Origin: an uncultured Lachnospiraceae bacterium
Lineage (GTDB): Bacteria; Bacillota; Clostridia; Lachnospirales; Lachnospiraceae
Reading direction: 5' to 3'
Assembly: GCA_947175035.1 (NCBI GenBank)
Contig: CAMWLG010000004.1
Coordinates: 1 to 64,000, forward strand
Length of the DNA: 64,000 bases
Translations under genes and position numbers: made by a program
The notes under the pieces: generated by a model
What the model was told of the DNA's origin: nothing
The model's input: only the letters and a program-made list of their open reading frames with translations
Database searches by the model: none
In this document: positions 3,184 through 53,793 of the stretch, piece by piece
Layout of the letters: every line of letters starts with the position of its first letter
Numbering within the stretch: position 1 is the stretch's first letter

Positions 3184-3996
3184 ATGATCGTAAAACACAA
3201 CCTTACAGCAATGAACTCTAACAGAATGCTTGGCTTGACCACATCTACACAGGCTAAGTCCACCGAGAAGCTGTCTTCCGGTTACAAGGTAAACCGTGCA
3301 GCAGATGATGCTTCCGGTCTGGCTATTTCCGAGAAGATGAGACGTCAGGTTCGCGGCCTGACCCAGGCTTCCGCTAACGCACAGGATGGTATCTCCATGG
3401 TGCAGACAGCAGAAGGTGCTTTGAACGAAGTACATGACATGCTGCAGCGTCTGAACGAGTTGGCAGTTAAGGGCGAGAACGGCACTCTGATGAGTGAGGA
3501 TCGCGGCTACATCAACAGCGAGGTACAGCAGCTGATGAGCGAGATCGACCGTGTTGCTTCCACCACGACCTTCAACGAGAAGAACCTGTTGAACGGTGAT
3601 TGCGCTTCTGGTGTTGATTTGCAGGTAGGTGCAGAGTCTGGTCAGCACATTTCGGTTAAGATTAAGAAGATGAACTGCTCAGGCTTGACCCTTTCCGGTG
3701 ACACCAAAACAGCTACTAACGCTGGTAAGTTTAACAAGTCCGTTAAGGATGCTATCAAGAATCTGAATGAGCAGAGATCTGAGCTTGGTGCTGTTCAGAA
3801 CAGACTTGAGCACACGATCAACAACCTTGACAACATTGCTGAGAATACCCAGTCCGCAGAGTCCGCTATCCGTGATACCGATATGGCTCTTGAGATGGTT
3901 TCCTATGCTAACAACAACATCCTTGCTCAGGCAGGACAGTCCATGTTGGCTCAGGCTAACCAGGCTAATCAGGGTGTATTGTCATTGCTTGGTTAA
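3184..3996 (+). CDS. Flagellin (filament protein)
   Basis: This 270-residue flagellin polymerises into the filament after secretion through the flagellar type III apparatus. The N-terminal D0/D1 region is canonical (KLSSGYKVNRAADDASGLAI, then the SANAQDGISMVQTAEGALNE helix). The C-terminal D1/D0 region is also canonical (GAVQNRLEHTINNLDNIAEN, SAIRDTDMALEMV, NILAQAGQSMLAQANQANQG). The central part is only about 60 residues, so there is little or no D2/D3 surface domain. The ATG has AAGGAGGA at ideal spacing. A SigD promoter and CsrA-type leader lie upstream and a strong terminator follows. Codon use is more optimised (GCT, CGT, AAC) than in neighbouring sugar genes, as expected for an abundant protein. 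It is adjacent to LicD and CgeB genes that probably modify it. Confidence 0.97.
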   Translation: MIVKHNLTAMNSNRMLGLTTSTQAKSTEKLSSGYKVNRAADDASGLAISEKMRRQVRGLTQASANAQDGISMVQTAEGALNEVHDMLQRLNELAVKGENGTLMSEDRGYINSEVQQLMSEIDRVASTTTFNEKNLLNGDCASGVDLQVGAESGQHISVKIKKMNCSGLTLSGDTKTATNAGKFNKSVKDAIKNLNEQRSELGAVQNRLEHTINNLDNIAENTQSAESAIRDTDMALEMVSYANNNILAQAGQSMLAQANQANQGVLSLLG

Positions 3997-7729: not shown

Positions 7730-9265
7730 CTATATCCTCAATGCCTCCACAATCCTCCTACAGTTATTGTCATCTCCGTATTGAAGCAGCTTTCCCCTTA
7801 ACATCTTCCTCTTTTCCTTTGCAGAGTCTATATCTGCCCCAATCTCCCTGACAAAGGAGCAAAAGTCCTCAAAGGAAAACAACTCTTTACCAGGCAGCCA
7901 TTCTTTAATATCAGGAAATACAAACCCTCTGCTTTCCTCATATTCCTCTGCATCATCCAGCGTGAAGGCGATTGGCCGGTCCAGCACCAGATAGTCCACT
8001 GCAGCCGAGGAATAATCACTGATCATGGCGTCAGCATGTCCCAGCAGCTGATTGATCTGTATATCCAGATCCGCAAGCTGTTCATTGTCCAACACCACAA
8101 TATTTTCCATATCAACCCTGCCAATTTTTTCCCTGTCCTGGAACGGGTGCAGCTTTAAGACCAGCACCATGTCAAGGCTCTGTAAAAGTCCATCCAGCTG
8201 TGATAGTTCTTCATATGTACGGACTATGGGGAGCCCTGTCTGCCCCTTCAGATCATACTCGTTCAAATCCTCAAGCCCTGGTCTCGCCATACGGAATGTA
8301 GGCAGCCAGAAAATGTATTTCTGCGCTTTTGCGACTCCCAGTTTCTCCTGCCAATCTCCAGTGGGAGAGAAGAGCCAGTCCTGTTTTGCATATCCCGTCA
8401 CAAGCATCTGGTCGGCACGGAGTCCGTAGACATCCTGGTGGATCTTTGAATAGACCTCACTGACCACTGTCGTATATTCATATCTTTTCTCGCAGCGTAC
8501 GAAATTCACCCTCGTCTTGAAACCGCAGCCATGCCACAGTTGAACGCGCGTCTGGTCCGGGCGACAATTCCTCGCAAATCCGTATGCGTCTGTGAAAAAA
8601 AGGTACTTAGCAAGGCAGAGCACCCTAAAATACCGGTCTCGCTCTTCCCTGTTTTCTGAGACGGCCCAGTCAAAGGATAAAAACTCGACGTTTTTATAGT
8701 TCCTCCACTTATCAAACTCCTGTGGGTTCTTTACCAGCCAGACCAGCTTGTACCGCTGGTTATACCCCTGCGCAAGCATGTATTCAAACAAAGCCCGTGC
8801 GTTGTCCGCGAAATCCATCCCCTTCACATAGACTGAGGTTTGGGGACCACTGCGGAATACGATTATATCTTCCAGTGCATAATTCTGATAATGCTCCCGA
8901 TATTCAAGCTCGCATTCTGTATTTTGATTTGGAAAAAAATAAATAGTATCTACTTTTTCCGTGACACAGTTGTTCCGGCATAAAGCCTCATAATGCTCTC
9001 TATAATAGCCGTCGGTGATCAGAAGGATGTTCTCACTCCAGTCAATCCGTGAAAGAGCGGACGAGTCCATTACCGGCAGCTGTCTGCCACAGAATAACAA
9101 ATCCCCCTGGCTGCGCTTATTGTCATCTATAATCCCCCGAAGCTTATCCTGTAATGGGAATCGGGCACACAGTTCCCTGAGATAGGATTCGGATCGTCCA
9201 TAACAGACAATGCCCTTACCCGTAATCCTCTCTATATTTTCCTGCACTAAACGTTCCAGTTTCAT
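7730..9265 (-). CDS. TagF/TarL-like CDP-polyol phosphotransferase (inverted duplicate 1)
   Basis: This 511-residue protein has two parts. Residues 15-115 form a small Rossmann-like module (GKGIVCYGRSESYL, GIIDDNKR). Residues 150-511 are a CDP-glycerol/CDP-ribitol glycerophosphotransferase domain (PF04464, GT-B fold) with VQLWHGCGFKTR, IFWLPTFRMA, VLVLKLHPFQD and MISDYSSAAVDYL. The family moves glycerol- or ribitol-phosphate from CDP donors in teichoic acid synthesis. No membrane segment is visible, so it would act in the cytoplasm or at the inner face. It is the last gene of a minus-strand operon that also makes a CDP donor. It is close to 90% identical to the gene at 28659-30194 on the opposite strand. 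Whether it uses CDP-ribitol or CDP-glycerol cannot be told from sequence. Confidence 0.88.
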   Translation of the reverse strand: MKLERLVQENIERITGKGIVCYGRSESYLRELCARFPLQDKLRGIIDDNKRSQGDLLFCGRQLPVMDSSALSRIDWSENILLITDGYYREHYEALCRNNCVTEKVDTIYFFPNQNTECELEYREHYQNYALEDIIVFRSGPQTSVYVKGMDFADNARALFEYMLAQGYNQRYKLVWLVKNPQEFDKWRNYKNVEFLSFDWAVSENREERDRYFRVLCLAKYLFFTDAYGFARNCRPDQTRVQLWHGCGFKTRVNFVRCEKRYEYTTVVSEVYSKIHQDVYGLRADQMLVTGYAKQDWLFSPTGDWQEKLGVAKAQKYIFWLPTFRMARPGLEDLNEYDLKGQTGLPIVRTYEELSQLDGLLQSLDMVLVLKLHPFQDREKIGRVDMENIVVLDNEQLADLDIQINQLLGHADAMISDYSSAAVDYLVLDRPIAFTLDDAEEYEESRGFVFPDIKEWLPGKELFSFEDFCSFVREIGADIDSAKEKRKMLRGKLLQYGDDNNCRRIVEALRI

Positions 9266-9296: not shown

Positions 9297-9998
9297 TTAC
9301 TTTATTTTTTGCCGCACAACAATATTTTGTCCATCTATACAATTACCACCTTCTCCTATGAGATTGCAAATGATTCTTGCCACATCCTCCGGCTGCATAA
9401 TCGTACTGGGATCTTCGTCAGGAGCAAGCTTTTTTCTTAGATTTGTTGCACACCGCCCTGGAGATATGCAATAAACCTTGATGCCGTATTCAGCTAATTC
9501 TTCTGTCAGCGTTTGGGAAATGGATATCATTGCAGCTTTTGAAGATGCGTAACTAACCCAACCGGGTCTTGGTGACATGCCTGCTGTAGACGCAATATTT
9601 AATATTTTTCCGCCTTTTTTCTTCATATACTTAGCGCATTCTCTCATTAAAATAAAAGGAGAAAAGCAATTTATCGTATATGTGGCTTGAATATTTTCAT
9701 ACGTAGTCGAAAATATTGATGCCGGTTCTGTATATCCCGCGATATTGAGCAGACAGTCAATGGTACCGTACTTTTCAGCTATCTCATCAACAATGTGAGG
9801 TAAGTTTTCTGGAGTACTTAAATCTGCATTTATAATGTACACATTAATATCCGATGCCATATTTTGGGCGGTTTCTTCTAAACCTTTTATGTTTCTTCCA
9901 ATCAGTGCATAATTGTCATACTCTCTCGTTTGACTAAGCATTATGGCGCTTGCGCGCCCTATCCCTGAAGAAGCTCCTGTGATAACACATGTTCTCAT
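9297..9998 (-). CDS. Short-chain dehydrogenase, probable ribulose-5-phosphate reductase
   Basis: This 233-residue classical SDR starts with the NAD(P) motif VITGASSGIGRASA, has NIAG at the end of strand 4, catalytic serine in NIASTAGMS and YASSKAA (YxxxK), all intact. It starts one base after the stop of the IspD-like gene, with AAGGAG at seven bases. In Haemophilus, Acs1/Bcs1 fuses an IspD-like CDP-ribitol synthase to an SDR that reduces ribulose 5-phosphate to ribitol 5-phosphate. Here the same two domains are adjacent separate genes, so ribitol-5-phosphate formation is the best guess. The SDR family is broad, so this remains an inference from the neighbour. Confidence 0.8.
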   Translation of the reverse strand: MRTCVITGASSGIGRASAIMLSQTREYDNYALIGRNIKGLEETAQNMASDINVYIINADLSTPENLPHIVDEIAEKYGTIDCLLNIAGYTEPASIFSTTYENIQATYTINCFSPFILMRECAKYMKKKGGKILNIASTAGMSPRPGWVSYASSKAAMISISQTLTEELAEYGIKVYCISPGRCATNLRKKLAPDEDPSTIMQPEDVARIICNLIGEGGNCIDGQNIVVRQKIK

Positions 9999-10679
9999 TT
10001 ATCTTCTCCTTGCGATGTACTCCTTATATATGATTTCCCCGATCAGCATGTCCAAAGCTTCGGTAAGCTTTATATTGTAGTTGCTGCCTTCAACGATTTC
10101 AATATTACTTTTCTCATAATAAAACAATAAGCTTGCATCCTCTGTAAATTTGCATCCTTCTCTAAAAGCTTTTTCATGGGCTTGTAATAATTCAGATTTG
10201 GAGAATTTCTGAGGCAGCTGCACATTGATCAGTTTTGAACGATCTAATATTCCGTCAAGCTTTTTGTCGCCTTCCACTACAGTGTACGGAATAGAGTATC
10301 CGAGCAAAGCGTTTTCCGAGTTTGCAGCAATAAGTCTCTTGAAATCATTTATAGTCGCAAAGGGTCTTGCCGCCTCATGAATGATAACCATTGAGTTTTT
10401 CGCCTTTTTCAACCCATTGTACACGGATTCCTGTCTTGTCTGTCCGGCCAAGGCAAAAACAACTTCCTTTGCAATATTGTATTGGGTGAGCAGTTGTGTA
10501 ATAGTTGCGGTATATTCACGCTCGCAGACCACAACGATTTCTGATATCTCATCTAATTCATCCAGCCGCTCAAGAGAATGAATTATTACCGGTTTGCCAG
10601 CCAGTAACAAATATTGCTTGGGAACAGATTTCTGCATTCTGGTTCCTTTGCCCCCTGCCAACAGAATCGCTGAGTACAT
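9999..10679 (-). CDS. IspD/TarI-family cytidylyltransferase, probable CDP-ribitol synthase
   Basis: This 226-residue protein has the nucleotidyltransferase signature AILLAGGKGTRMQKSVPKQY at the N terminus, VVCERE, GQTRQESVYNGL and IIHEAARPF, all as in IspD, TarI and Bcs1. These enzymes couple CTP to a sugar-alcohol phosphate. Next to an SDR and TagF-like transferases, and away from other isoprenoid genes, CDP-ribitol synthesis is far more likely than MEP-pathway IspD. A GTG at 10688 would extend the protein by three residues; the ATG at 10679 has GGAGG eight bases upstream and is preferred. A second enzyme of this family is at 32709-33431. Confidence 0.85.
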   Translation of the reverse strand: MYSAILLAGGKGTRMQKSVPKQYLLLAGKPVIIHSLERLDELDEISEIVVVCEREYTATITQLLTQYNIAKEVVFALAGQTRQESVYNGLKKAKNSMVIIHEAARPFATINDFKRLIAANSENALLGYSIPYTVVEGDKKLDGILDRSKLINVQLPQKFSKSELLQAHEKAFREGCKFTEDASLLFYYEKSNIEIVEGSNYNIKLTEALDMLIGEIIYKEYIARRR

Positions 10680-10696
10680 CTCTGCCACCTCCAGTT

Positions 10697-12235
10697 CTAA
10701 ATGTTAAGCATATCCAAAACCCTTTGGCTGTTATTTCCATCGTGATATTTTAATAACTTATTCCTTAAGTTCTGACGCTTGTGCTTGTCAAAGTCCAACC
10801 CGTCAGCGATCATACCGGCAAAAGAAATATAATCAGTCATATTCCAGATCTCTTTGCCTGGCAGCCAATCACAGATATTATCAAACATAAAACCTCTGCT
10901 CTCTTTGTATTCATCAATATCGTCTAATGTAAAAGCAATAGGTCTGTCCAACAGCAAATAATCCGTGGTGACAGAAGAGTAGTCAGAGATAAGCGCATCA
11001 GCATAAGCCAGTAAACGGTTTATCATAATATCGTGTTTGCAAAGCTCCGCATTATCCAGTAAAAAAATATTGCTGGGATTTCCACAATCAATATCTTCCT
11101 TATTTTGAAATGGATGCAGTTTTATTACAAGTTGGATATTTCGAGCTTTTAAATAACTATTCAGCTCATCCATTTTTTCATAAGTATCCACAACCGGAAG
11201 CCCGGTCTCAGAAAAGTTTGAATATTCGTTCAGAAAGGATAATCCTTCATTAGATACCATTCTGTAAGTAGGCAGCCAAAATATGTATTTTGAAGCCGGA
11301 GGAATATTTAACAGTTCCAAATAATCAATTTCTGATTTTTCTAATAACCAATCAGCTTTTGGATAACCCGTAACAAGTATTTGGTCTTTTCTCAAACTAT
11401 TTATTTTTTGAAATAAGTTTCCGTATATATCACTTACTACAGTGTAATATTCATACCGTTTTTCATGATAATTACGTCCCTTTGAATACTTATAGCCGCA
11501 TCCGTGCCATAGCTGTATTCGGAGCTGATCTGTTCTTGCTTCTCTGCAAAACCCATACGCATCCGTAAAAAATATATATTTAGCAAGACATAATGCCCGA
11601 TAATATGCGTCCCTTTGTTCTACATTATCCGTTTCCGCCCAATCGAATGACATAAAAGTAACATTTTTTATGCCTTCATAATCCGTATGCTTTTGTGGGT
11701 CTTTTACAAACCATACAAGCTCATATTTTTCGTTATATTTGTTTTTTACCATGTGTTCAAACAAAGCTCTTGCATTGTCATAAAAATCCGTTCCCTCTAT
11801 GTAGGCATCCTTAGATGGTCCGCTTCTGAAAACAATGATGTTATCCAACGGTTGATTCTTGTATTTATCTTTATAGTACAAATAAAATTCCGTATTTTTA
11901 TTAGGAAAAAAATAAATTACACGATCAGATGTATTTATCGATTTGAACTGCCCAACCCGTTCATAGATTTCTCTGTAGTAACCATCCGTAATAATAAATT
12001 CATACTCATCTGTACAAATGGTATCAAGATATGAATACTCATAAATCGGTATTGTTTTATCCCGTATTATCAGGTTATTTACTTTGAAAGATTTTTTGAT
12101 AATCATTTCAACGTTTTCCAATACCCCATATTTTTGCTCCAATTCCTCAGTATATCTTTTGCCCGCTTGGAAGAGGCATAATTTTTTCCCTAAAATCTTC
12201 GATATATTCTCAGGTGATAATTGCTCGAGTTTCAT
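10697..12235 (-). CDS. TagF/TarL-like CDP-polyol phosphotransferase
   Basis: This 512-residue protein has the same two-part build as the genes at 7730 and 28659: an N-terminal Rossmann-like module (KLCLFQAGKRYTEELEQKYG) and a PF04464 GT-B domain with IQLWHGCGYKYSKG, IFWLPTYRMV, LVIKLHPFQNKED and LISDYSSVTTDYLLLDRPIA. It is much more diverged (roughly half identical) and AT-richer than that near-identical pair. Start and preceding stop overlap as ATGA, with AAGGAG upstream, so it is translationally coupled to the beta-propeller gene. With two such transferases in one operon, one may prime and the other extend, or each may decorate a different site; this is inference. Confidence 0.87.
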   Translation of the reverse strand: MKLEQLSPENISKILGKKLCLFQAGKRYTEELEQKYGVLENVEMIIKKSFKVNNLIIRDKTIPIYEYSYLDTICTDEYEFIITDGYYREIYERVGQFKSINTSDRVIYFFPNKNTEFYLYYKDKYKNQPLDNIIVFRSGPSKDAYIEGTDFYDNARALFEHMVKNKYNEKYELVWFVKDPQKHTDYEGIKNVTFMSFDWAETDNVEQRDAYYRALCLAKYIFFTDAYGFCREARTDQLRIQLWHGCGYKYSKGRNYHEKRYEYYTVVSDIYGNLFQKINSLRKDQILVTGYPKADWLLEKSEIDYLELLNIPPASKYIFWLPTYRMVSNEGLSFLNEYSNFSETGLPVVDTYEKMDELNSYLKARNIQLVIKLHPFQNKEDIDCGNPSNIFLLDNAELCKHDIMINRLLAYADALISDYSSVTTDYLLLDRPIAFTLDDIDEYKESRGFMFDNICDWLPGKEIWNMTDYISFAGMIADGLDFDKHKRQNLRNKLLKYHDGNNSQRVLDMLNI

Positions 12236-13350
12236 TTGTTTTGTCTCCTTTGCTCTCGCATAGCTATATGTTCTAGAAAATCTTTTAATTGAAATAAACT
12301 ATTTTCTTTCATTGCATTTGACTGCTGTATTTGGTCGCTGAAGAACATTTCTTTTCCCTGTGTCAGCAAAAATTCAAATGGTCTGATTTTCATAGAAGTG
12401 TAATCCAGATAAAAGTAGCTTTTCCGTGCATTAGACCTCAGTCTTAAATAAGCTTTATGCGTATCCTCAAACATAAAACCAAGTGTTTCATCATCCTTTA
12501 CATTTAAAGTTTCCCATTGTGACAGCACTCCCGATTCGGTATCCACAATTATTCCCATGTTTGCTCTGACGGGTATTAAATATAGATTTTTGCCCCTGCA
12601 AAAAATTTTTGAAAAAGCAAAGTCTCTACCGCAGAACCCCTTTGGAAAAGCATCATACTCCTGAACTTCGTGAGATAGTAGATTCCATCTGATGACCGGC
12701 CCCGGATTTTTCGGTGCCAGCCAAAGGTGATCACCTACAATACACCCACTCCAGCATCCATGATTATTATCTCCAATATGCCAAAATTTCCCATCTCCAT
12801 TATCCATATTAAATTCAAGTACCTTGTTGTCGCAGGTATCCGGAATATATAGCATATTGCCATATTTTGCCGGACTTCTTCTGAAAATAAAGGATTGTCC
12901 TTGTGCCCAGCTGTCAAAATATTTAATATCATATTCGCCATTGACTTGTGATATTTTTAATATTCCCGGATATGTACAGCCTATCATATATACACTGTTT
13001 TTATAGACGATGGCCTCATTAAATTTTGCTCCATTTTTATAATATGTATTGTCAGACAATACAGGGGAGGCTATGGAAAGCTTTTCGACCTCGTAGGATG
13101 ATGTATCTATCACCGCAATCTCATTGGCGGATGAAGGGACTAAATAAATTTTATCGGAACAGACAACCGCTTTTGTATAGAGCCTGTTTTGACTCATTTT
13201 TTCATTTGGAATAAATCCCAGATATTCACAGTTTCCGGTATTTAAATCCGCTCTGAATATTGCGTTGTATTCTGTACTAATACCTATCCCAATGTTCGAA
13301 TTTACTTCTGCAAACGTCTCAAAGTCAAGTTGAATATATTCCACAATCAT
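12232..13350 (-). CDS. Beta-propeller-like protein of unknown function
   Basis: This 372-residue protein has repeating short units of the type YTKAVVCSDKIYLVPSSANE, MLYIPDTCDNKVLEFNMDNG and LWLAPKNPGPVIRWNLLSHE, with recurring Gly-Asp and aromatic-Leu-Pro patterns. These fit blades of a Kelch- or WD-like propeller. No signal peptide or membrane segment is visible, so it is probably cytoplasmic. A paralogue lies at 26043-27176 in the mirror-image part of the island. It is the first gene of the minus-strand operon. The ATG at 13350 has AGGAG upstream; an in-frame extension to 13422 would run across the 25-bp recombination-like site and is rejected. It may be a scaffold or sugar-binding partner of the transferases. 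Function is not known. Confidence 0.7.
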   Translation of the reverse strand: MIVEYIQLDFETFAEVNSNIGIGISTEYNAIFRADLNTGNCEYLGFIPNEKMSQNRLYTKAVVCSDKIYLVPSSANEIAVIDTSSYEVEKLSIASPVLSDNTYYKNGAKFNEAIVYKNSVYMIGCTYPGILKISQVNGEYDIKYFDSWAQGQSFIFRRSPAKYGNMLYIPDTCDNKVLEFNMDNGDGKFWHIGDNNHGCWSGCIVGDHLWLAPKNPGPVIRWNLLSHEVQEYDAFPKGFCGRDFAFSKIFCRGKNLYLIPVRANMGIIVDTESGVLSQWETLNVKDDETLGFMFEDTHKAYLRLRSNARKSYFYLDYTSMKIRPFEFLLTQGKEMFFSDQIQQSNAMKENSLFQLKDFLEHIAMREQRRQNK

Positions 13351-13391: not shown

Positions 13392-13416
13392 TTCGCAGAA
13401 TGAACCCATCTGCGAA
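13392..13416. repeat. Left copy of a 25-bp dyad site (candidate inversion site)
   Basis: Arms TTCGCAGA and TCTGCGAA are perfect 8-bp inverted repeats around the 9-bp asymmetric spacer ATGAACCCA. This is the usual form of a tyrosine-recombinase crossover site. An exact copy (26 bp including one flanking base) lies in opposite orientation at 16832-16856. The left copy is in the 5' leader of the beta-propeller operon. Confidence 0.85.
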
Positions 13417-13465
13417 AAGCAATCTACAGATTTGCTCTGTACCATTATTAAATATATCGGTTTAT

Positions 13466-13494
13466 ATTTTACACTATTTAAGTCGGACTTGCAA
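13466..13494 (-). promoter_or_regulatory. SigA promoter facing left, for the 13350-to-7730 operon
   Basis: On the minus strand TTGCAA (13494-13489), 17 bases, TAAAAT (13471-13466). It lies inside the segment bounded by the two 25-bp sites and reads out across the left site into the beta-propeller gene. Inverting the segment would point it at the GT2 operon on the right. Confidence 0.75.
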
Positions 13495-13551
13495 TAATTT
13501 AAATATTTCCGTTTTTTCCCACAACTTTCACCAGTTCAAAGTAGTAATGAA

Positions 13552-13580
13552 TTCACGATTAGTTACGTTTTGTGTAAAAT
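13552..13580 (+). promoter_or_regulatory. Candidate promoter of the recombinase gene
   Basis: TTCACG, 17 bases, TAAAAT, about 95 bases ahead of the recombinase ATG. The -10 is good and the -35 matches four of six positions. Confidence 0.45.
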
Positions 13581-13672
13581 GAAAAACACAAATTGAAGAA
13601 AACCGTTATTTTTCAGTCAGTTTTGGGGTCAAAATCTCAGGGGTATGTATCATCAAATGAAAGGAGCAAAAT

Positions 13673-14818
13673 ATGGCAAGACATGGAGAGAATATCAGGA
13701 AGAGAACCGATGGACGGTGGGAAGGGCGCTATAAGACGTTTGATGAGAACAGAGGAAGCTATATCTATCGTTCGGTATATGGCAGCGCATATGAGGAGGC
13801 AAAGGAAAAGCTATCCAAAGCCAAGCTAAGTCTTGTAACCACGGCTGCCGGGGAACGCCAGACGCGGACCGAGACAGGGAATAGCACTACAGTTTTGTTC
13901 TCACAGGCTGCTCAGGAGTGGCTTGCAGAGATCGCAGACAAGCGGAAGTATTCGACCTATGTGAAATATGAAACAGTATACAGAATCCATCTTGCCGGAA
14001 TTATCGGTTTCTGCCAACTTTCCAATACTGCCGCCTCAGAGATACAGGCAAAGATTTTTGACCACTTATCGGAAGCGGCGCTTTCAGAAAGCCTGCAAAA
14101 GAGTATCTGCGGCATTGCAAATCAGATATTGGTCTTTGCAAACAGGAGATATTCGGTCGGTGTCCCCACATTGGAAAAGCCTGGAATAAAGCAAAAGTAC
14201 AAGCCTATCAGGACATTGTCCAAGGCAGAGCAGGCCAGACTGCTCTCCAGTATCTATGGCGAACCGAATCCGTTCAAAATTGCGCTGCTGCTATGCCTGT
14301 ACACAGGTTTGCGGCTCGGAGAGTTATGTGCGCTTAAATGGACAGACTTTGATCTCAAAAATATGTCCCTGACAGTGAGCAGGACGGTACAACGGATTGC
14401 CGCACAGGACGGTATGAGCAAAACCATTCTGCTGGAGACTGCCCCTAAAAGTGAAGGTTCCAAAAGAACGATCCCTCTGATGGTCGAAATCATGGAACTG
14501 CTTTCCCGGCTGGATCAAGGCCTCCCTTATGTATTTGGCGGGAATAAGCCACTGGAACCGAGAACCATGCAGTACAGATTCAAGAAACTGTTGAAAGCGG
14601 TGGATGTTGGTGACAGAAATTTTCATATTCTTCGCCATACCTTTGCCACAAACTGCATTGAAAACGGTATGGATGTGAAAGCCCTGAGTGAAATCCTAGG
14701 ACATTCCGATGTGAAGATCACCTTGAATCGTTATGTACACCCGACAATGGAATCTAAGAGAAAGCAGCTCGGACTGCTCCCCGACTTTTATGGTCAGATT
14801 CTGGGTCACGTTTCCTGA
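13673..14818 (+). CDS. Tyrosine recombinase (phage/Tn916-type integrase family)
   Basis: This 381-residue site-specific recombinase has an N-terminal arm-binding-like region (NIRKRTDGRWEGRYKTFDEN), a SAM-like core-binding domain at about residues 75-165, and a catalytic domain with all expected residues. These are Arg in YTGLRLGELCALKW, Lys in the beta-hairpin around KSEGSKRTIPL, His and Arg in HILRHTFATNC, His in LGHSDVKITLNRY and Tyr in the same stretch. GAAAGGAG precedes the ATG. It lies between two inverted 25-bp sites, so it is the obvious candidate to invert the segment carrying its own gene. It could instead be a leftover integrase of a mobile element; no excisionase or other transfer genes are visible. 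Confidence 0.93.
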   Translation: MARHGENIRKRTDGRWEGRYKTFDENRGSYIYRSVYGSAYEEAKEKLSKAKLSLVTTAAGERQTRTETGNSTTVLFSQAAQEWLAEIADKRKYSTYVKYETVYRIHLAGIIGFCQLSNTAASEIQAKIFDHLSEAALSESLQKSICGIANQILVFANRRYSVGVPTLEKPGIKQKYKPIRTLSKAEQARLLSSIYGEPNPFKIALLLCLYTGLRLGELCALKWTDFDLKNMSLTVSRTVQRIAAQDGMSKTILLETAPKSEGSKRTIPLMVEIMELLSRLDQGLPYVFGGNKPLEPRTMQYRFKKLLKAVDVGDRNFHILRHTFATNCIENGMDVKALSEILGHSDVKITLNRYVHPTMESKRKQLGLLPDFYGQILGHVS

Positions 14819-14828
14819 TAAGCAGGAT
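14780..14828 (+). repeat. 49-bp direct repeat, copy 1 (3' end of recombinase gene)
   Basis: This copy covers the last codons of the recombinase (DFYGQILGHVS and stop) plus 10 bases beyond. It matches 16762-16810 at 47 of 49 positions. The two copies flank the ATPase/nuclease gene. Confidence 0.85.
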
Positions 14829-14832
14829 ATCT

Positions 14833-14867
14833 GCAGGCGGCTGCACACGGTTCTGCCGCCTGCTCCT
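14833..14867. terminator. Terminator between convergent recombinase and ATPase genes
   Basis: Stem GCAGGCGGC (14833-14841) pairs with GCCGCCTGC (14855-14863), followed by TCCTTTT. It ends next to the stop codon of the minus-strand gene at 14869. Confidence 0.75.
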
Positions 14868-14868
14868 T

Positions 14869-16554
14869 TTATGCCTGTGCCGTCGTACCAATCAGCACTT
14901 TTTTACCACAAAACGCAAATCCATACTTACGGATTCGCTCTTGTGGGATCCCCTTGGCAATCAGGGATGCCTGGTAATCCTTCTCCTCAATCTGGCGCAA
15001 CGCCGCAGAAACTGTGTCAGCCAAATCCGCCTCTTCTTCATCTTGCACCTTGAACTCTATAATAATAGCATCACATATCTTCCGAGGCTCCAGCATGATG
15101 TCATAACGGCCAAAACCACTCTCACGGTTGGAAGTGACTATATATTTATCAGTCAGCTCCACCATCAGCCCCAGAACAAATCCATGGTAGAAGCGCTCCG
15201 GTTCGCTCCAAGCACTTTTGCCCGTATCAAAATAACTGAACATCTCCGTCGTCACCCTGTTCATATAGGTGTTCATGGCTTTTACATCCCCCAGCAGCAG
15301 AGCCTTGATGAAGTCATTGTAATCATCATTTCCAGAGAACCAGTCCATAATCATGCTCTCGAACATAACATGGACTTCCCTGTTGGTCAACATCAGTTTA
15401 TAATATGTCCGTCCCAAGCTTTCCACAAAGGTGGTATCTACCACTTTCAGATATCCGCTGGCGAGCAGGAGACTCCAGATAGCGTTCTTCTTTATGGACA
15501 GCTGGCTGTATATGATCTGCTCATCAATCTCCATGTCCAGCACTCCGCCACATAATAATATTTCAAAGGTTTTCTTGACATTAGCGTTCCCTTCCTTGAT
15601 CAGATTCCCTACTAACCGGTTGGAGCTGGTGTTAGCCCAATAGGTTCCTGCTTTTTTCTTATCCAAAAAGTTAATGATGGACCATGGATTATAAATATCC
15701 CTTCTACTGCCAAAGGTAAATCCATTGTACCAATCCTTAACTTTCTGTTTCTCTCCTGTCAGGCCAAATGCTTCCAAGGCAGTGAACACTTCGCTTTCTG
15801 TGAAGCCAAAGCAATCCGCATATTTTTCCGAGGTGGTCGTCACCACCTCCAGGTTGTTCAGATCCGAGAAAATAGACTCCTTACTGACTCGGGTAATCCC
15901 TGTCATAATAGCACGTTCCAGATAGGGGTTTGTCTTAAAGGTGGCATTAAAAAGACTCCTGGTAAACGCTGTCAGTTCCTCCCAGTATTCATCCAAATAT
16001 GCTTCCTGCATGGGCGTGTCGTACTCATCCAGAAGAATGATTGCTTTTTTGCCATAGTAGCGCATCAGATAATTTGAAAGCGTTCTCAGAGAATCTGCCG
16101 CAATATATTCCTCCATATCAATCGAAACCTTCTGGTAAAATTCCTTTTCCTTTTCGTTTAATATCCCACTGTCTATCAGGAAATCATACTGATTGTACAA
16201 TTCCGTGATGGTCTGACATATCCTCTTCTGGGCATTCCGCCACGAGGTCTCCTTGATGTTGGCAAAGCTCAGCGAAATCACAGGGTACGTTCCCTGTATC
16301 TGACGGTATTTTTCCTCCTGCCAAACAGAAAGTCCCTCGAACAAATCACCGCGCCCCGCGTATTGTACGGAGAAAAACTTCTCCAACATACTCATGTTCA
16401 GAGTCTTGCCGAACCGTCTGGGACGGGTGATCAGGGTCACGCTGTCTCCGCTTTCCCACCACTCCCGTATAAAATGTGACTTGTCAATATAAAAATAATT
16501 CTCCCGCCGAACCGTTTCAAAATCCTGATTTCCAATTCCTACTGTTCTCGCCAT
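14869..16554 (-). CDS. AAA-ATPase_like / PD-(D/E)XK nuclease-domain protein
   Basis: This 561-residue protein is of the AAA-ATPase_like (PF09820) plus PDDEXK_9 (PF08011) type. The N terminus has YIDKSHFIREWW, the P-loop-like TRPRRFGKTLNMSML and the Walker B-like AIILLDEYDTPMQEAY. The C terminus has a degenerate nuclease core, RYDIMLEPRK then AIIIEFKVQDEEEAD (Asp and Glu-x-Lys). Such genes occur in many copies in Lachnospiraceae and Bacteroidota; their function is not established. AGGAG lies upstream of the ATG. It sits between the recombinase and the right-hand 25-bp site, flanked by 49-bp direct repeats, so it looks like later cargo. A second family member is at 30308-31888. Confidence 0.87.
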   Translation of the reverse strand: MARTVGIGNQDFETVRRENYFYIDKSHFIREWWESGDSVTLITRPRRFGKTLNMSMLEKFFSVQYAGRGDLFEGLSVWQEEKYRQIQGTYPVISLSFANIKETSWRNAQKRICQTITELYNQYDFLIDSGILNEKEKEFYQKVSIDMEEYIAADSLRTLSNYLMRYYGKKAIILLDEYDTPMQEAYLDEYWEELTAFTRSLFNATFKTNPYLERAIMTGITRVSKESIFSDLNNLEVVTTTSEKYADCFGFTESEVFTALEAFGLTGEKQKVKDWYNGFTFGSRRDIYNPWSIINFLDKKKAGTYWANTSSNRLVGNLIKEGNANVKKTFEILLCGGVLDMEIDEQIIYSQLSIKKNAIWSLLLASGYLKVVDTTFVESLGRTYYKLMLTNREVHVMFESMIMDWFSGNDDYNDFIKALLLGDVKAMNTYMNRVTTEMFSYFDTGKSAWSEPERFYHGFVLGLMVELTDKYIVTSNRESGFGRYDIMLEPRKICDAIIIEFKVQDEEEADLADTVSAALRQIEEKDYQASLIAKGIPQERIRKYGFAFCGKKVLIGTTAQA

Positions 16555-16585
16555 GATCAGACTCTCCTAATAATTTCAAACCTTT

Positions 16586-16666
16586 TCAATCACACAGCCA
16601 TCTTATTTCGCTTTCCGTAAAACCGGTAAACTCATCAAATCCGTCCGGATCCAAGTATGTTCCCAT
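16586..16666 (-). pseudogene. Remnant of a second ATPase/nuclease gene (start joined to an internal piece)
   Basis: A 26-codon frame reads MGTYLDPDGFDEFTGF then TESEIRWLCD. It joins the N terminus of the 30308 gene (MGIYLNPG) to that gene's internal segment FVEFTGFTERDVQLLCE. About 230 codons between are missing and a stop follows. The promoter and leader upstream (16664-16755) match those of the 30308 gene closely. Confidence 0.7.
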
Positions 16667-16697
16667 TAAAATTACCCTCCATAAATACCTTATGCTT

Positions 16698-16725
16698 ATT
16701 ATATCAGTTTACTTGGTAAATACAA
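16698..16725 (-). promoter_or_regulatory. SigA promoter for the ATPase/nuclease gene and the remnant
   Basis: On the minus strand TTGTAT, 16 bases, TATAAT. It is nearly identical to the promoter at 30249-30276 and is followed by the same GGAGGGTAATTT leader. Confidence 0.7.
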
Positions 16726-16761
16726 ATCTTTTTTGTTAATCCGAAAGAAACTGAAACATTT

Positions 16762-16810
16762 CCCAACTTTTATGGTCAGATTCTGGGTCGCGTTTCCTGA
16801 TAAGCAGGAT
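16762..16810 (+). repeat. 49-bp direct repeat, copy 2 (orphan recombinase tail)
   Basis: This is a second copy of the recombinase 3' end without the rest of the gene. It directly precedes the right 25-bp site. This suggests that the original unit was site-recombinase-site and that the ATPase gene was inserted between the recombinase and its right-hand site. Confidence 0.8.
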
Positions 16811-16831
16811 GTATGCAGACTTTTGGAGGGT

Positions 16832-16856
16832 TTCGCAGATGGGTTCATTCTGCGAA
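16832..16856. repeat. Right copy of the 25-bp dyad site (inverted)
   Basis: This is the exact reverse complement of 13392-13416, with arms TTCGCAGA/TCTGCGAA and spacer TGGGTTCAT. It lies just ahead of a GT2 pseudogene and the plus-strand GT2 operon. Confidence 0.85.
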
Positions 16857-16863
16857 TGTGAGT

Positions 16864-17580
16864 ATGTGTAAGAAGATGGAGAATGCACTGATCAGTGTGA
16901 TAATTACTGTTTATAATGCGGAAAAAGACAGCCGCGTTCATGTAATACATAAGAGAAATGAAGGTGCGCCGAAAGCAAGAAAGGTCGGATGTGAGTTTCC
17001 CAAAGGGGCATATCTGTTGATTATCAATGCTGATGATTGACTGGAATCTGATATGATTGAAAAGTTATACAGAACGGCCATCGGGCAGAATGGCCAGATA
17101 GCACTGTGCGGTCGGTTTGAGGAAAGCGACCGCGGAAGCATGCCGGTAAAACAGGAAAAGTTTAAAGAAAAAGAATATTCAAAAGAACTGTGTGCTCAAT
17201 TAGATGAATATATGAGGTATATGATTTGGATGGGAATACCGGGAGGCATTGATGAAAGCGGAAAATATATTTTTCCGTTTGCCAAAGTGCCATGTGGTGC
17301 AAAGATTGTGTTATATGGAGCCGGAAATGTGGGGAGGATATACTTTCATCAAGTTAAAAAACAAGATATTGTGATGTTGCGGTGTGGATAGACAGATCTT
17401 ACCAAAGAGCAGAATTACAGGAAGAGGGGTGTTGGATTAGAAGCGCTAAGGCAGAAAGAGTATGAATATGTAGAAATTGCAATTGCAGCAGAGGAAATAG
17501 CAATGGCGATAAGAGAAGAGTTACATAGAGATTATGAGATTCCATATCATAAAATAGTTTGGCAGAATCCAGTGATATGA
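16864..17580 (+). pseudogene. Decayed GT2 glycosyltransferase with C-terminal Rossmann-like module
   Basis: Pieces match the intact GT2 paralogues downstream. ISVIITVYNAEK is followed at once by DSRVHVIHKRNEGAPKARKV, so the DDGSTD donor-binding region is deleted. An in-frame TGA at 17038-17040 interrupts INADD-LESDM, where the paralogue at 27428 has DDW. The module KIVLYGAGNVGRIYFHQVK follows near 17300, and the frame shifts near 17391 before the tail HKIVWQNPVI. It is non-functional as read. It is the first gene to the right of the candidate switch. Confidence 0.8.
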
Positions 17581-17607
17581 GGAAATACAGTGGATTGGGG
17601 AAGTATG

Positions 17608-18930
17608 ATGGTTAAAGTTTCTGTTATTATGCCGGTATATAATTCTGAAAGCTATCTGTCTGTTGCTTTAGATAGCGTGATAAATCAAACTCTAAAGGAT
17701 ATAGAGATTATATGCGTTGATGATGGCTCAACTGATCGGTCTATTGAGATACTGCAGTCTTATCAAAAGCGTGATGAAAGAATCGTTGTGTTAAAGCAAA
17801 AACAATCTTATGCAGGGGTTGCGCGAAATTATGGAATGTCTGTGGCAACGGGGAAATACTTATCATTTTTAGACTCTGATGATTATTTTAAACCGGAGAT
17901 GCTGGAAAAAGCGTTTGAAAATGCAGAAAAGCAAAATGCAGATGTTGTTATTTTTGGAGGGAAATGTTTTGATGGTGATATGGAAAATGCGATTTCCTAC
18001 CCTGCGCTTTTGAGAGAAGAATTCATTCCGGAGGGGATTGGATTTGATAATCATGAGAAAATCGATAATTTAATGTCGATCACAACGCCTGCACCGTGGA
18101 ATAAGCTTTATCTCTATTCGTTTATCAAAAAACATCAGTTAAAATTTCAAACCTGTAAAAGAGTCAATGATGCTTATTTTGTGGAATTGGCAATTGCTAA
18201 CGCTGATAGAATAGGAGTTGTAAGAGAGGAATTAATTTATTACAGAACAGGAAATGGCAATAGTCTTCAAGGAACCGGAAGTGAATCGCCGGAGCAGTTT
18301 GCAGAAGTGTTTTTAAGTATTCAGGATAAATTACAGGAATTAAATATTTATAAAAAAGTAGAAAGAAGCTTTCGAAATTTATGTTTGGCAAATTGTATTT
18401 ATAACTTAGAAAATATGAAAAATGCAGAGAGCTTTGAAAAACTATTTGTGGCGTTAAAAACATACATTTTTAAAAATCTGCATATTGAGGGAACCTTGCG
18501 GAATGATTACTATAACACATACGCATATGATCTGTATTTATACATTATGTCCCATTCACCGTTACAGTACTGGATGGATAAGTGTGATGGAGAGGTGAAA
18601 AATGCAGCTGATAAGCAATATTTATTTCCATTTGAAATGATATTAAAGGGCAGCAGTATTATCTTATATGGTGGAGGCAGGGTAGGAAAAGTCTATTATA
18701 GACAAATTGAGAAAAGTCAGTATTGTATTTTAACAGCATGGGCAGACAAAAAAGTAAAAGAATATAACGGATATTCCTTATGTGCGCCGGAAAAGATAGA
18801 TTGGTGTAAGTGTGATTATATTGTAATAGCCATAGAGTCAGAAAGAACAGCAAAGTTAATAAAAAAAGAATTATATGAGGATTTTGGCATTCCGGATACT
18901 AAAATTGTATGGCAAAGTCCATTGCTATAA
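17608..18930 (+). CDS. GT2 glycosyltransferase with C-terminal Rossmann-like module
   Basis: This 440-residue protein has a GT2 (GT-A) domain at residues 1-230 with VSVIMPVYNSESYLSVALDS, ICVDDGSTDRS, FLDSDDYF and the acceptor-side stretch APWNKLYLYSF. The C-terminal module at residues 340-440 starts SSIILYGGGRVGKVYYRQI and continues with AWADKK, a nucleotide-binding-like fold without obvious catalytic residues. It transfers a sugar from a nucleotide donor; specificity is unknown. ATGs at 17605 and 17608 are both possible; 17608 has better spacing from GGGGAAG. It is the first intact gene of a long plus-strand operon and markedly AT-rich compared with sections a and h. Confidence 0.88.
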   Translation: MVKVSVIMPVYNSESYLSVALDSVINQTLKDIEIICVDDGSTDRSIEILQSYQKRDERIVVLKQKQSYAGVARNYGMSVATGKYLSFLDSDDYFKPEMLEKAFENAEKQNADVVIFGGKCFDGDMENAISYPALLREEFIPEGIGFDNHEKIDNLMSITTPAPWNKLYLYSFIKKHQLKFQTCKRVNDAYFVELAIANADRIGVVREELIYYRTGNGNSLQGTGSESPEQFAEVFLSIQDKLQELNIYKKVERSFRNLCLANCIYNLENMKNAESFEKLFVALKTYIFKNLHIEGTLRNDYYNTYAYDLYLYIMSHSPLQYWMDKCDGEVKNAADKQYLFPFEMILKGSSIILYGGGRVGKVYYRQIEKSQYCILTAWADKKVKEYNGYSLCAPEKIDWCKCDYIVIAIESERTAKLIKKELYEDFGIPDTKIVWQSPLL

Positions 18931-30276: not shown

Positions 30277-30307
30277 AAGCATAAGATATTTGTGGAGGGT
30301 AATTTCA

Positions 30308-31888
30308 ATGGGAATATATTTGAATCCGGGCAATGAAGGATTTCGAGAAATCCTGCAGTCGGAATATGTGGATAAAACAGGCTTGATCGCATTGGTCAAT
30401 AACACTGCGGGGACAATGGGAAAGCTGATCTGCATCAGCAGGCCGAGGCGTTTTGGTAAGTCTTATGCGGCAAAGATGCTGTGTGCGTATTATGACTGTT
30501 CCTGTGATTCACGGGCACTTTTTGATGATAAGGAGATTGCAAAAACGGAGGGGTATCTGACTCACTTAAACCGGTATCACGTGGTCAATCTTGATATTAC
30601 CGGATTTATTTCCGAAGCGGCAAGGATGAACATGCCGCTCTCCCATGTGCCCAATATGATTGTTGACGCGGTTTACAGGGAACTGACGGAGAGTTATCCG
30701 GAACTGGACGGGAAAAGCCTTACAGATGCTATGATCAGTTGTGTGGAAAAGACAGATACAGAGTTTGTGTTTATCATTGATGAATGGGATGCGCTGATCC
30801 GTGAGGCGAAGAATGATACAGAGGTACAGAAGAAGTACCTGCACCTCCTCAGGGGATGGTTTAAAAATAACAACTTCACGCCAAGGGTAGTGGCGGCGGC
30901 TTATATGACGGGGATTCTGCCGATCAAGAAGGACGGCTCACAGTCGGCAATCTCGGATTTTAGGGAATATACCATCCTGGATCCCGGAAGATTTGTGGAA
31001 TTCACAGGCTTTACAGAAAGAGATGTTCAACTACTGTGTGAAAAATACGGGATGGATTTTGAGAAAATCAGACAGTGGTATGACGGATATGATTTTCCCG
31101 GATACGGAGCCATTTATAATCCCTATTCTGTGATGTGTGCCATGCAGGATCAGAAGTGTAGGTCATACTGGCAGAAGACATCAGCTTCGGAATCGCTGAT
31201 GACCTATATCAACATGGATTTTGAAGGGCTGCAGGAGACTATTGCGAGACTGATAGCCGGTGAAGAGGTTGAGGTCAGAACCGACAGGTTTGAAAATGAT
31301 TTTGAGACTTTTAAGAGTAAGAATGACGTGCTGACGCTGCTGATCCATCTGGGGTATCTTACCTGGCGTGAGGAAGATGGGACGGCGCAAATCCCTAATG
31401 AAGAGGTACGGATGGAGTTTGAGAAGATCCTTGAGGGGACGGGAGTGAGCAGAAAGTGGATGGAACTGATCAGCCGTTCCAGAAAGCTCTTGGAGGATAC
31501 GATTGCAGGCAATGCAGAGGCGGTAGCTAAAGCAATAGAGGAGATCCGCGACACACAGTATGCGCCTATGTTTTACAATGATGAACAGGCATTGCGGTAT
31601 GTGATTAAGTTTGCATATATTGCGGCGATTGACCAGTATTTGAAAGTAGAAGAGCTTCCGTCAGGGAAAGGGATTGCGGATGTGGTGTATCTGCCGAAAC
31701 GGAAATCCGTGCTCCCGGCGTTAGTCATTGAGTTGAAATGGAACCAGTCATCCGAGGGAGCAATACAGCAGGTCAAGGAAAGAAATTATCCAGCGGTATT
31801 AAAGGATTACGGCGGCGAGGTGGTGATTGTCGGAATCAATTATGATGCGAAGACGAAAGAGCATAGCTGTGTGATTGAGAAGGTGTGA
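30308..31888 (+). CDS. AAA-ATPase_like / PD-(D/E)XK nuclease-domain protein
   Basis: This 526-residue protein is of the PF09820 plus PF08011 type: MGIYLNPGNEGFREILQSEY, the P-loop-like CISRPRRFGKSYAAKM, Walker B-like FVFIIDEWDALIREA and a C-terminal nuclease-like core IADVVYLPKRKS then ALVIELKWNQSSEGA. The ATG at 30308 is chosen over a GTG at 30290 because GGAGGG is eight bases upstream. It has its own promoter and a hairpin after it, so it is a separate unit inserted between the GT2/TagF pair and the ribitol gene set. Function is not known for the family. Confidence 0.87.
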   Translation: MGIYLNPGNEGFREILQSEYVDKTGLIALVNNTAGTMGKLICISRPRRFGKSYAAKMLCAYYDCSCDSRALFDDKEIAKTEGYLTHLNRYHVVNLDITGFISEAARMNMPLSHVPNMIVDAVYRELTESYPELDGKSLTDAMISCVEKTDTEFVFIIDEWDALIREAKNDTEVQKKYLHLLRGWFKNNNFTPRVVAAAYMTGILPIKKDGSQSAISDFREYTILDPGRFVEFTGFTERDVQLLCEKYGMDFEKIRQWYDGYDFPGYGAIYNPYSVMCAMQDQKCRSYWQKTSASESLMTYINMDFEGLQETIARLIAGEEVEVRTDRFENDFETFKSKNDVLTLLIHLGYLTWREEDGTAQIPNEEVRMEFEKILEGTGVSRKWMELISRSRKLLEDTIAGNAEAVAKAIEEIRDTQYAPMFYNDEQALRYVIKFAYIAAIDQYLKVEELPSGKGIADVVYLPKRKSVLPALVIELKWNQSSEGAIQQVKERNYPAVLKDYGGEVVIVGINYDAKTKEHSCVIEKV

Positions 31889-52299: not shown

Positions 52300-53598
52300 T
52301 TAACAATAGCTGTTAAACATCATGCCGCTGTACGAACTGGAATTATAAGGACTCACAAAATTGCGTTGTCCGGGTCTCTTGTATGCCACCATGGTTTTTT
52401 CCACATAATCCATGGGGTTTAAGGAAACCTGACGGCTCTTGCGCAGCAGTGAGTTGGAGAAATCCTTCAGATAAGAGAAGGTCTCCGGAATATCCTCCGA
52501 CTGCATTGCGGCTTGTGTGATCAGGTTCTTGTCGAACTCAAGGGTACCATCCTCCGCCAGATTGACTCCCATGGATTCCATAGGGTTGCGGTACAGGGAA
52601 GCGATGCCCTTCATCTCTTTCACCAAGTTGCTGCTCTTGGACTGGGACTCGAGATAGGAGGAGGCAGCCTTCATAAATTCATTGTAACCGCTGATCAAAT
52701 GGGTGACATTGTCGGTTAGGGAGTCGATATCCGCCTTCAGACCAATCTGAACGCTTTCCCCATCACTATTGACGCCGTTCAACTGTACCTCAAACGCTTT
52801 GCCTACCGTGAACCGGTTGGAGGCAGAGGTGCGGGCGTCTCCGTTGATGGTAAAATGTGCATTGGCGGCTTCTCTCGTAGTATAATCCAATCCAAAGTAA
52901 TCAACAATACCGCTTGTTTTGCTGGTGTGATTATCAGAGACTTTAAATACATAGGATTTACCATTGGAAAGTCCCGTGGTCTCGGAGGTCATCCGCAGTG
53001 ATGTCTTGCCTTCCGAATCCATCAAATCAGCCTTTATGCCAATGTTCGCGTTGTTGATCAGGCGCACTAATCTTGACTGCACCTCTTTGTTGGTATCGTC
53101 CTCATTCACAGTGAACTGGAATTCATAGTTCATATCGTTGATGGCCACGTCAAAGGAATAGGTGTCGGGGGGGAGGGCAAATTGCTCATCCTCCATAAAC
53201 AGTCCCATATTCTCCTGACGGGAAGCCAGGGATTGTACCTCGATATTGAATTCCATTGTGGTGTTTTCAGGAGCATTATGCCCGACATAGGTAACAGTGG
53301 CAACATCCTCGTTGGAGGAATAGGCGCTCCTTTTATCCCACAGACCATCTGAATCCGTGCCGCCCAACTGCGCAATGGTATTGTGAAGCTCACGGGCATT
53401 TTCCTTAATGTTCACCGCATAGTTTTGAGTAGCTTTGCTGGTGACCGGAAGATACCAAGGAGCATCTTTATTCATTTTGACAATGGAATTGTACAAACCG
53501 CGCAGCTCTGACTTCTTGTGAGTGTCATAGCGTGTCATGCGCTTCGGCGTATAAGTGGTCAGATAATTGTTGTAGACGGCATTTAAAGCAAAACTCAT
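52300..53598 (-). CDS. FliD-like flagellar filament protein
   Basis: This 432-residue protein has a C-terminal part like FliD: KADIDSLTDNVTHLISGYNE, a helical region, then MGVNLAEDGTLEFDKNLITQ. A middle part holds a Flagellin_IN-like unit (YEFQFTVNEDDTNKEVQSRL then VRLINNANIGIKADL). It lacks the usual FliD start for the hook junction and ends in a Ser/Tyr-rich tail YNSSSYSGMMFNSYC. It may cap or anchor the giant filament, or be a FliD relative with another role. The ATG at 53598 is preferred to the GTG at 53604, as AAGGAGG spacing fits. A CGATAA element lies upstream (53696-53703), but its SigD spacing is wrong. It is the last island gene before the core operons. Confidence 0.7.
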   Translation of the reverse strand: MSFALNAVYNNYLTTYTPKRMTRYDTHKKSELRGLYNSIVKMNKDAPWYLPVTSKATQNYAVNIKENARELHNTIAQLGGTDSDGLWDKRSAYSSNEDVATVTYVGHNAPENTTMEFNIEVQSLASRQENMGLFMEDEQFALPPDTYSFDVAINDMNYEFQFTVNEDDTNKEVQSRLVRLINNANIGIKADLMDSEGKTSLRMTSETTGLSNGKSYVFKVSDNHTSKTSGIVDYFGLDYTTREAANAHFTINGDARTSASNRFTVGKAFEVQLNGVNSDGESVQIGLKADIDSLTDNVTHLISGYNEFMKAASSYLESQSKSSNLVKEMKGIASLYRNPMESMGVNLAEDGTLEFDKNLITQAAMQSEDIPETFSYLKDFSNSLLRKSRQVSLNPMDYVEKTMVAYKRPGQRNFVSPYNSSSYSGMMFNSYC

Positions 53599-53793
53599 AG
53601 CCACGCCTCCTTTCTTCCTTGAATTAGCGTGTAGCGTGTTTTATCTGTTGGGGTAAAAAGTTTGTGAAAATCCATTTTCTGAAACTCCCCCACTCTTATC
53701 GTTGTATAGACCTAGTTTACCACATGTTATAGGAAGAAACAAGGATTTTTTTAAAAATTTTCAAAAATTTGGCGGAAAAAGATGTGAAAATAG

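Follow-up and report, generated by a model that had tools for sequence, protein, structure and literature searches.

In the Hin/H-segment system of Salmonella, a serine recombinase working with an enhancer inverts a DNA segment that carries an outward promoter, and each flip turns the neighbouring operon on or off. Tyrosine recombinases usually exchange strands over an overlap of 6–8 bp, and one of them, RecV, is encoded away from its switches. The hin gene lies inside its invertible segment, and the RecV switches of Clostridioides difficile combine a tyrosine recombinase with inverted repeats to control surface and motility genes (PMC5903667). Here, we analysed a 64,000-nucleotide stretch of DNA from an uncultured Lachnospiraceae bacterium (hereafter, the window), and propose that its positions 13392–16856 form a self-contained promoter switch flipped by the tyrosine recombinase that it encloses, a reading to which we assign a probability of about 0.8. 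This putative switch, or cassette, resembles the Hin/H-segment in that the recombinase gene and an outward promoter both lie within the invertible segment, but unlike Hin, with its serine enzyme and enhancer, it has a tyrosine recombinase and sites of 8-9-8 architecture (8-bp arms around a 9-bp spacer). It resembles the RecV switches in its tyrosine recombinase, its inverted repeats and its occurrence in a gut bacterium of the Clostridia, whereas in the present family every cassette brings a recombinase of its own; short site pairs that lack an integrase occur as well. Switches that enclose their recombinase gene and promoter switches operated by tyrosine recombinases are already known.

Two further reports come close to the family. 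The hCom2 survey links inverton group 139, with 32 of 33 from Clostridia, to tyrosine recombinase/integrase group 35 (PMC11892184); compared by description, without site sequences, this group may or may not be the cassette family described here. The second presents csrA-fliC TldR loci with Hin promoter inversion in Flavonifractor and Oscillibacter (PMC13418256). Like those loci, cassettes in the relatives studied here precede CsrA-flagellin genes or genes for TnpB-like proteins in which the third RuvC aspartate is missing. In the TldR loci, a serine Hin lies beside an inverted stretch of about 120 bp, whereas here a tyrosine recombinase lies inside one of about 1.5 kb. Among the matches listed in literature searches on invertible promoters and tyrosine recombinases in Lachnospiraceae, Firmicutes and Clostridia, and likewise on TnpB-like proteins and TldR, the titles and abstract openings held no description of this cassette.

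The window cassette (3465 bp) is bounded by a left site at 13392–13417 (plus strand; the U site, upstream of the recombinase) and a right site at 16831–16856 (minus strand; the D site), which repeats the left-site sequence inverted. Each site consists of the arms TTCGCAGA/TCTGCGAA around the 9-bp spacer ATGAACCCA, and together they form an exact inverted repeat, with 26-nt copies that are 100% complementary and lie 3413 nt apart. A preliminary description of the window had reported two exact 25-bp sites in opposite orientation with 8-bp dyad arms and a 9-bp spacer; the exactness, the orientation and the internal layout all held, whereas the length proved to be 26 bp. The 8-9-8 architecture recurs in 71 of 91 homologous loci, the window included. 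The sites are inverted and not direct repeats, in contrast to the direct attachment sites of an integrative element. Within the window, the arm pattern with up to three mismatches was matched three times against 0.26 expected, two of the three matches being exact and corresponding to the cassette sites. The preliminary description had also proposed looking for the site elsewhere in the genome: in the host draft genome (3.55 Mb, 151 contigs, 92.7% complete), the 26-mer with up to three mismatches had no copies beyond these two.

The recombinase gene (13673–14818, plus strand) is a complete open reading frame (ORF) of 381 amino acids that matches Pfam PF00589 (E 2.2e-28), a tyrosine-type enzyme and not a serine recombinase such as that of Hin-type invertases. 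R214, K259, H318, R321, H344 and Y354, which we take to be the catalytic residues, are invariant across 15 homologues, and the related solved structures include the Int proteins 6en0 and 6emz. These observations bear out the complete tyrosine recombinase that had been placed between the sites. The protein matched only itself in its own genome (E 1e-10); across the genus, 42 of 138 genomes gave a match (E 1e-40, own genome counted). Homologues in phage and plasmid records (915 and 133 records) were all below 60% identity, at 31–38% among the eight listed in each set, and pointed to no mobile source.

Removing duplicates from a first set of 20 loci, a second set made up of the best 80 of 539, and the window left 91 distinct integrase loci; by record title, they are mostly Lachnospiraceae. 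In 71 of them, the recombinase lies between paired inverted 8-9-8 sites (hereafter, sited loci); 69 were recognised by an automatic score and two (L118 and L060) were added by hand, and the 71 are partly non-independent, L120/L129 and L103/L104 being near duplicates. The arm pattern, with at most one mismatch, was found in 21 of 21 genomes as compared to one for a reversed control, and in a second set in 35 of 41 as compared to two for the control, among the matches listed; the two sets share one genome, and all were chosen for holding the recombinase. Single matches may be due to chance, as one in genome G139 had no matching partner nearby in the stretch examined.

Selecting site pairs by similarity (at least 20 of 25 positions) favours matching spacers, and the promoter and per-position counts given below rest on such pairs. 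To remove this bias from the spacer comparison, sites were also sought by their arms only, on each side separately; of the 90 loci whose flanks were long enough, 68 had a site on either side of the recombinase. With one site read inverted, the two spacers agreed at 9/9 positions in 58 loci, at 8/9 in nine and at 2/9 in one. Thus, the spacers matched in inverted orientation in 67 of the 68 loci, whereas agreement at 8/9 or better occurred in only 2.5% of comparisons between different loci. The exception, L106 (G144 contig C23 97669–100528), is a tandem of two adjacent cassettes with the same spacer in opposite orientation and four sites in total. In a per-position count over 70 pairs, from which L106 was excluded, the within-pair differences fell mostly in the arms (outer arm, 50; inner arm, 11), with nine at spacer position 1, two at position 9 and none at spacer positions 2–8. 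This invariance fits strand exchange over a 7-bp overlap at positions 2–8, as we infer from the sequences. In genome G138, a difference at spacer position 1 travels with the outer flank, which also fits such an overlap.

The assemblies of three relatives, G138, G140 and G153, contain cassette junctions of both orientations. In G138, the cassette's downstream end, at the end of one contig, is connected to the flank that is also found at its upstream end (74 bases identical), whereas a second contig connects the upstream end to a different flank. A long genuine inverted repeat could mimic the first contig taken alone, but the second contig makes this unlikely. The record of G138 is the isolate C49_72_CC_BP and bears no metagenome-assembled-genome prefix, while G140 and G153 are metagenome bins. 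In G140, the same flank is joined to both cassette ends, on two contigs, and in G153, two flanks are joined to an identical 51 bases of one cassette end. Three such genomes yield no rate, contig-end junctions having been checked by hand in few genomes, among the sites listed. Contig C117 of G142 was considered as a further case, and its examination gave no evidence of both orientations.

Comparison of flanks between loci gave cross-side homology, with related flank DNA abutting opposite ends of the cassette, in some pairs such as L053 versus L054 (90% over 2167 bp) and L103 versus L107 (78% over 3004 bp); overall, 21 cross-side and 31 same-side alignments start within 80 bp of both sites. We gave these cross-side matches little weight as evidence for a switch, since only one flank is shared in them and re-insertion or reshuffling is also possible. 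For the window itself, neither the left nor the right flank had a close copy in the other genomes searched in the genus (138, own included), the best other matches being 30 and 134 bases long.

The candidate outward promoter, TTGCAA-17-TAAAAT, lies at 13466–13494 on the minus strand and reads leftward through the left site. Seven relatives (L036, L053, L054, L055, L056, L057 and L060) have the same hexamers at the same spacing, 43–49 bp away from the site, and L061 and L105 have them with one mismatch. The sequence around them has diverged in the eight relatives aligned, L053 excepted. Counting the window, the exact hexamers are present in 8 of the 18 sited loci above 55% identity. In this form, by conservation alone, the "good SigA promoter" of the preliminary description appears to be present just inside the left site, reading from inside outwards. 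In the family as a whole, the region between the upstream site and the recombinase contains an outward promoter matching the consensus at 11 or 12 of its 12 bases in 16 of 71 loci (a perfect match in eleven), as compared to 1 of 71 for an inward promoter and 0.75 expected from shuffles. At the right end of the window cassette, no outward promoter stands out, as had been stated before.

Matched spacers, junctions in both orientations and a conserved outward promoter, all seen through the relatives, strongly support the following mechanism. The recombinase made inside the segment would bind the 8-bp arms of the two inverted sites and exchange strands within the spacer, presumably over the 7-bp overlap, so that everything between the sites is inverted. 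The promoter upstream of the recombinase would always face outward through the U site. In the orientation shown, it would drive the beta-propeller/TagF/IspD/SDR/TagF operon on the left (ON); after inversion, this operon would lose that promoter (OFF), and the promoter would face right, into a broken GT2 gene and then an intact glycosyltransferase operon. The recombinase gene moves along with the inverting DNA and is therefore predicted to be expressed in the ON and the OFF state alike. That inversion switches the left operon off, as had been predicted, is a likely outcome judging from the relatives, although inversion of the window copy was not seen; its flipping is an extrapolation from them, just as promoter activity and the effect on glycans are predictions from sequence. 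With these qualifications, the cells can probably switch surface-sugar genes on and off at random.

The first gene of the left operon (12232–13350, minus strand; ATG 41 bp past the left site) has no Pfam match, and the label "beta-propeller" from the preliminary description is kept here as an unconfirmed assumption. It is followed, on the same strand, by genes for a TagF-like glycerophosphotransferase (10697–12235, PF04464), an IspD-like cytidylyltransferase (9999–10688, PF01128), a short-chain dehydrogenase (9297–9998, PF00106) and a second TagF-like glycerophosphotransferase (7730–9265, PF04464). Homologues of the first gene (phmmer, E 1e-5) occur among the first six genes on either side in 17 of the 71 sited loci, the window included. 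The left operon thus appears to begin with a recurrent type of target and is predicted to be ON in the orientation shown. The cassette is surrounded by a surface-sugar island with LicD and glycosyltransferase genes, and its position between a flagellin gene (3184–3996) and a FliD-like gene (52300–53604) suggests that the switched trait is flagellin or surface glycosylation.

On the right, the cassette adjoins a relic of a GT2 gene with an internal deletion and in-frame stops (about 16864–17577, plus strand), recognised by tblastn of the intact GT2 protein and missed in the preliminary description. The first intact glycosyltransferase ORF, a GT2 gene of the right operon (17590–18930, plus strand, PF00535), starts 733 bp beyond the right site. 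Because the first right-hand gene is broken, control of a second sugar operon is uncertain, and the alternation between two glycan modules put forward in the preliminary description is weakened accordingly. In its stronger form, the proposed switch would alternate the left operon with the right glycosyltransferase operon, with read-through past the relic. The genes on the two sides both face outward, an arrangement shared by 29 of 71 sited loci (window included), and the glycosyltransferase genes are intact from 17590 onwards, as such an alternation would require; but the first 700 bp to be crossed are a relic with stop codons, where untranslated transcription may end early, and the genus offers no close copy of the right flank for comparison. 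We therefore consider the switch itself likely and its two-way form less certain, a possibility that leans somewhat towards doubt.

The cassette is also unusual in size. At 3465 bp it is the sole outlier, the other 70 sited cassettes measuring 1357–1929 bp. The preliminary description correctly placed a tyrosine recombinase in a 3.4-kb segment (3413 nt between the sites) and overlooked a second gene there (14869–16554, minus strand), of the AAA-ATPase_like/PDDEXK_9 type (PF09820, PF08011). On either side of this gene stands a copy of the recombinase gene's end, forming a 57-bp direct repeat on the plus strand: copy 1 (14780–14836) comprises the gene end and 18 bases past it, and copy 2 (16762–16818), 93% identical, is probably the original right end of the cassette. 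The insertion of the AAA-ATPase/PD-(D/E)XK gene between the repeats accounts for the extra length. A second gene of this family is present in the window at 30290–31888, and others occur near cassettes or integrases in L064, L088, L098 and L109.

Several observations weigh against a working switch. The draft assembly of the window's genome contains a single orientation of the cassette. As a bare match, the window promoter has only 9 of 12 consensus bases, which without conservation is at chance level (11 promoter-like sites versus 9.3 expected). The metagenome bins G140 and G153 could mix two strains, although both orientations would still exist. With 3-kb flanks and blastn at E 1e-8, no pair of loci was found with both flanks swapped; four pairs have both flanks in common, and in each of them the cassettes are oriented alike, although two of the four are near duplicates. 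A complete site pair is absent from 20 of the 91 integrase loci: in L073, L077 and L123, the contig is too short upstream; in six others, there is one site only (L059, L076, L081, L098, L121 and, weakly, L043); and eleven have no site at all (L050, L070, L071, L072, L074, L085, L093, L094, L096, L097 and L122). The right site of L053, the nearest relative, has a degenerate outer arm, and 13 of 16 arm bases match. Finally, the right site of the window adjoins a broken gene, and the window copy alone among the sited loci is enlarged by a 2-kb insertion.

The single orientation, the longest of the 71 segments and the right-hand GT2 relic would all be compatible with an ancestral switch that has become locked here, fixed by the 2-kb insertion or by loss of the right-hand target gene. 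Decay of that kind is expected to touch the sites and the enzyme, but the sites are identical over 26 bp, and the recombinase has both an unbroken reading frame and its invariant catalytic residues; we regard such a locked relic as unlikely.

Neighbouring genes were taken as mechanical ORFs of at least 90 amino acids and clustered by single linkage, so that the cluster of the window's first left gene includes proteins whose sole connection to it runs through fusion proteins. Among the 65 sited loci with genes on both sides, there are none in which the two nearest genes both face the cassette, as compared to 3 of 17 unsited ones, a difference that speaks for the switch. At least one of five recurrent families is represented among the first two genes of a side in 56 of the 71 sited loci: TnpB-like genes (33; PF07282), the group that includes the window's left gene 1 (30; no Pfam match), a second integrase (7; PF00589), CpsB (6; PF19567) and CsrA-like genes (4; PF02599), with one or two members of each run against Pfam. 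In the relatives, the cassettes lie in front of glycan, capsule, CsrA-flagellin and probably nuclease-dead TnpB-like operons. A CsrA-like gene is first past the site in L058, L068, L069 and L075 (PF02599 in L058, the one tested), and a flagellin gene follows it in three of the four, echoing the published csrA-fliC loci. In L083, L084, L088, L090, L099, L102 and L109, a second, different integrase gene comes first beside the cassette and points away from it (PF00589 in L083, the one tested); one recombinase switch may thus control another recombinase.

The TnpB-like genes (35 in number, the two run against Pfam matching PF07282) adjoin cassettes in L034, L057, L060, L089, L124 and further loci and are the commonest targets. 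Such a gene is on the promoter (U) side in 10 of the sited loci and on the opposite side in 23; a switch sampled in one or the other of its states would give this mixture, provided that transcription comes mainly from the U-side promoter. By motif match, the third RuvC aspartate is missing in all 35; from the role we assume for this residue, the proteins are probably nuclease-dead. A conserved non-coding block lies 3' of these genes and resembles a guide-RNA scaffold; a loose pattern served to place its end, which is uncertain in some rows. The 22 bases past the block gave no convincing guide target in the same loci, with short matches of one or two mismatches in 5 of 35 rows, and Rfam at gathering scores returned nothing for four TnpB-like loci. 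In the window's own genome, a search run without a positive control gave no match for a TnpB-like gene, and the window cassette accordingly is not linked to a TldR-type gene.

Inverted site pairs 258–429 bp apart with no integrase between them occur in L144, L145, L146, L147, L148 and L149. By eye, the genes that follow them are TnpB-like, CpsB-like or a second integrase, with none visible in L145, where the contig ends. Genomes G170, G183 and G191 hold short site pairs together with the unsited integrases L070, L096 and L122, which suggests action in trans; the integrase-free pairs are possibly flipped in this manner.

More broadly, we tentatively propose that a lineage of compact cassettes, made up of promoter and recombinase, has spread among the Lachnospiraceae of the gut, where its members would serve surface operons as exchangeable on/off heads. 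Each cassette's own spacer would restrict it to its partner site, and integrase-free pairs may flip in trans. The commonest target operon would start with a probably nuclease-dead TnpB-like protein and its guide-RNA-like block, so that random inversion would switch an RNA-guided regulator and the genes behind it; the window copy would represent a branch that drives glycan genes directly. Taken as a whole, we put this proposal slightly short of even odds. Long-term spreading of this sort is compatible with switching. A purely mobile reading, in which a small integrase transposon ends in the inverted sites and inverts as a by-product of its mobility, could draw on the several sites in many genomes (1–10 in each of 21), the different operons adjoined, the single flank shared in cross-side matches, as re-insertion would give, and the two adjacent cassettes in G144, but it is very improbable given sites that differ between cassettes and match within them, the recurrent families among the neighbours, integrase-free pairs that, by eye, precede the same kinds of gene, and conserved outward promoters.

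If the promoter switch proposed here is real, it would explain variation of surface sugars, and perhaps of flagellin decoration, across a large group of gut Lachnospiraceae, a variation that bears on immune recognition and phage attack. Since the site and the recombinase are recognisable and relatives with both orientations exist, the switching rate, the private spacers and action in trans are directly testable. The association in relatives with TnpB-like genes whose third RuvC aspartate is missing would bring together the fields of phase variation and RNA-guided regulation.

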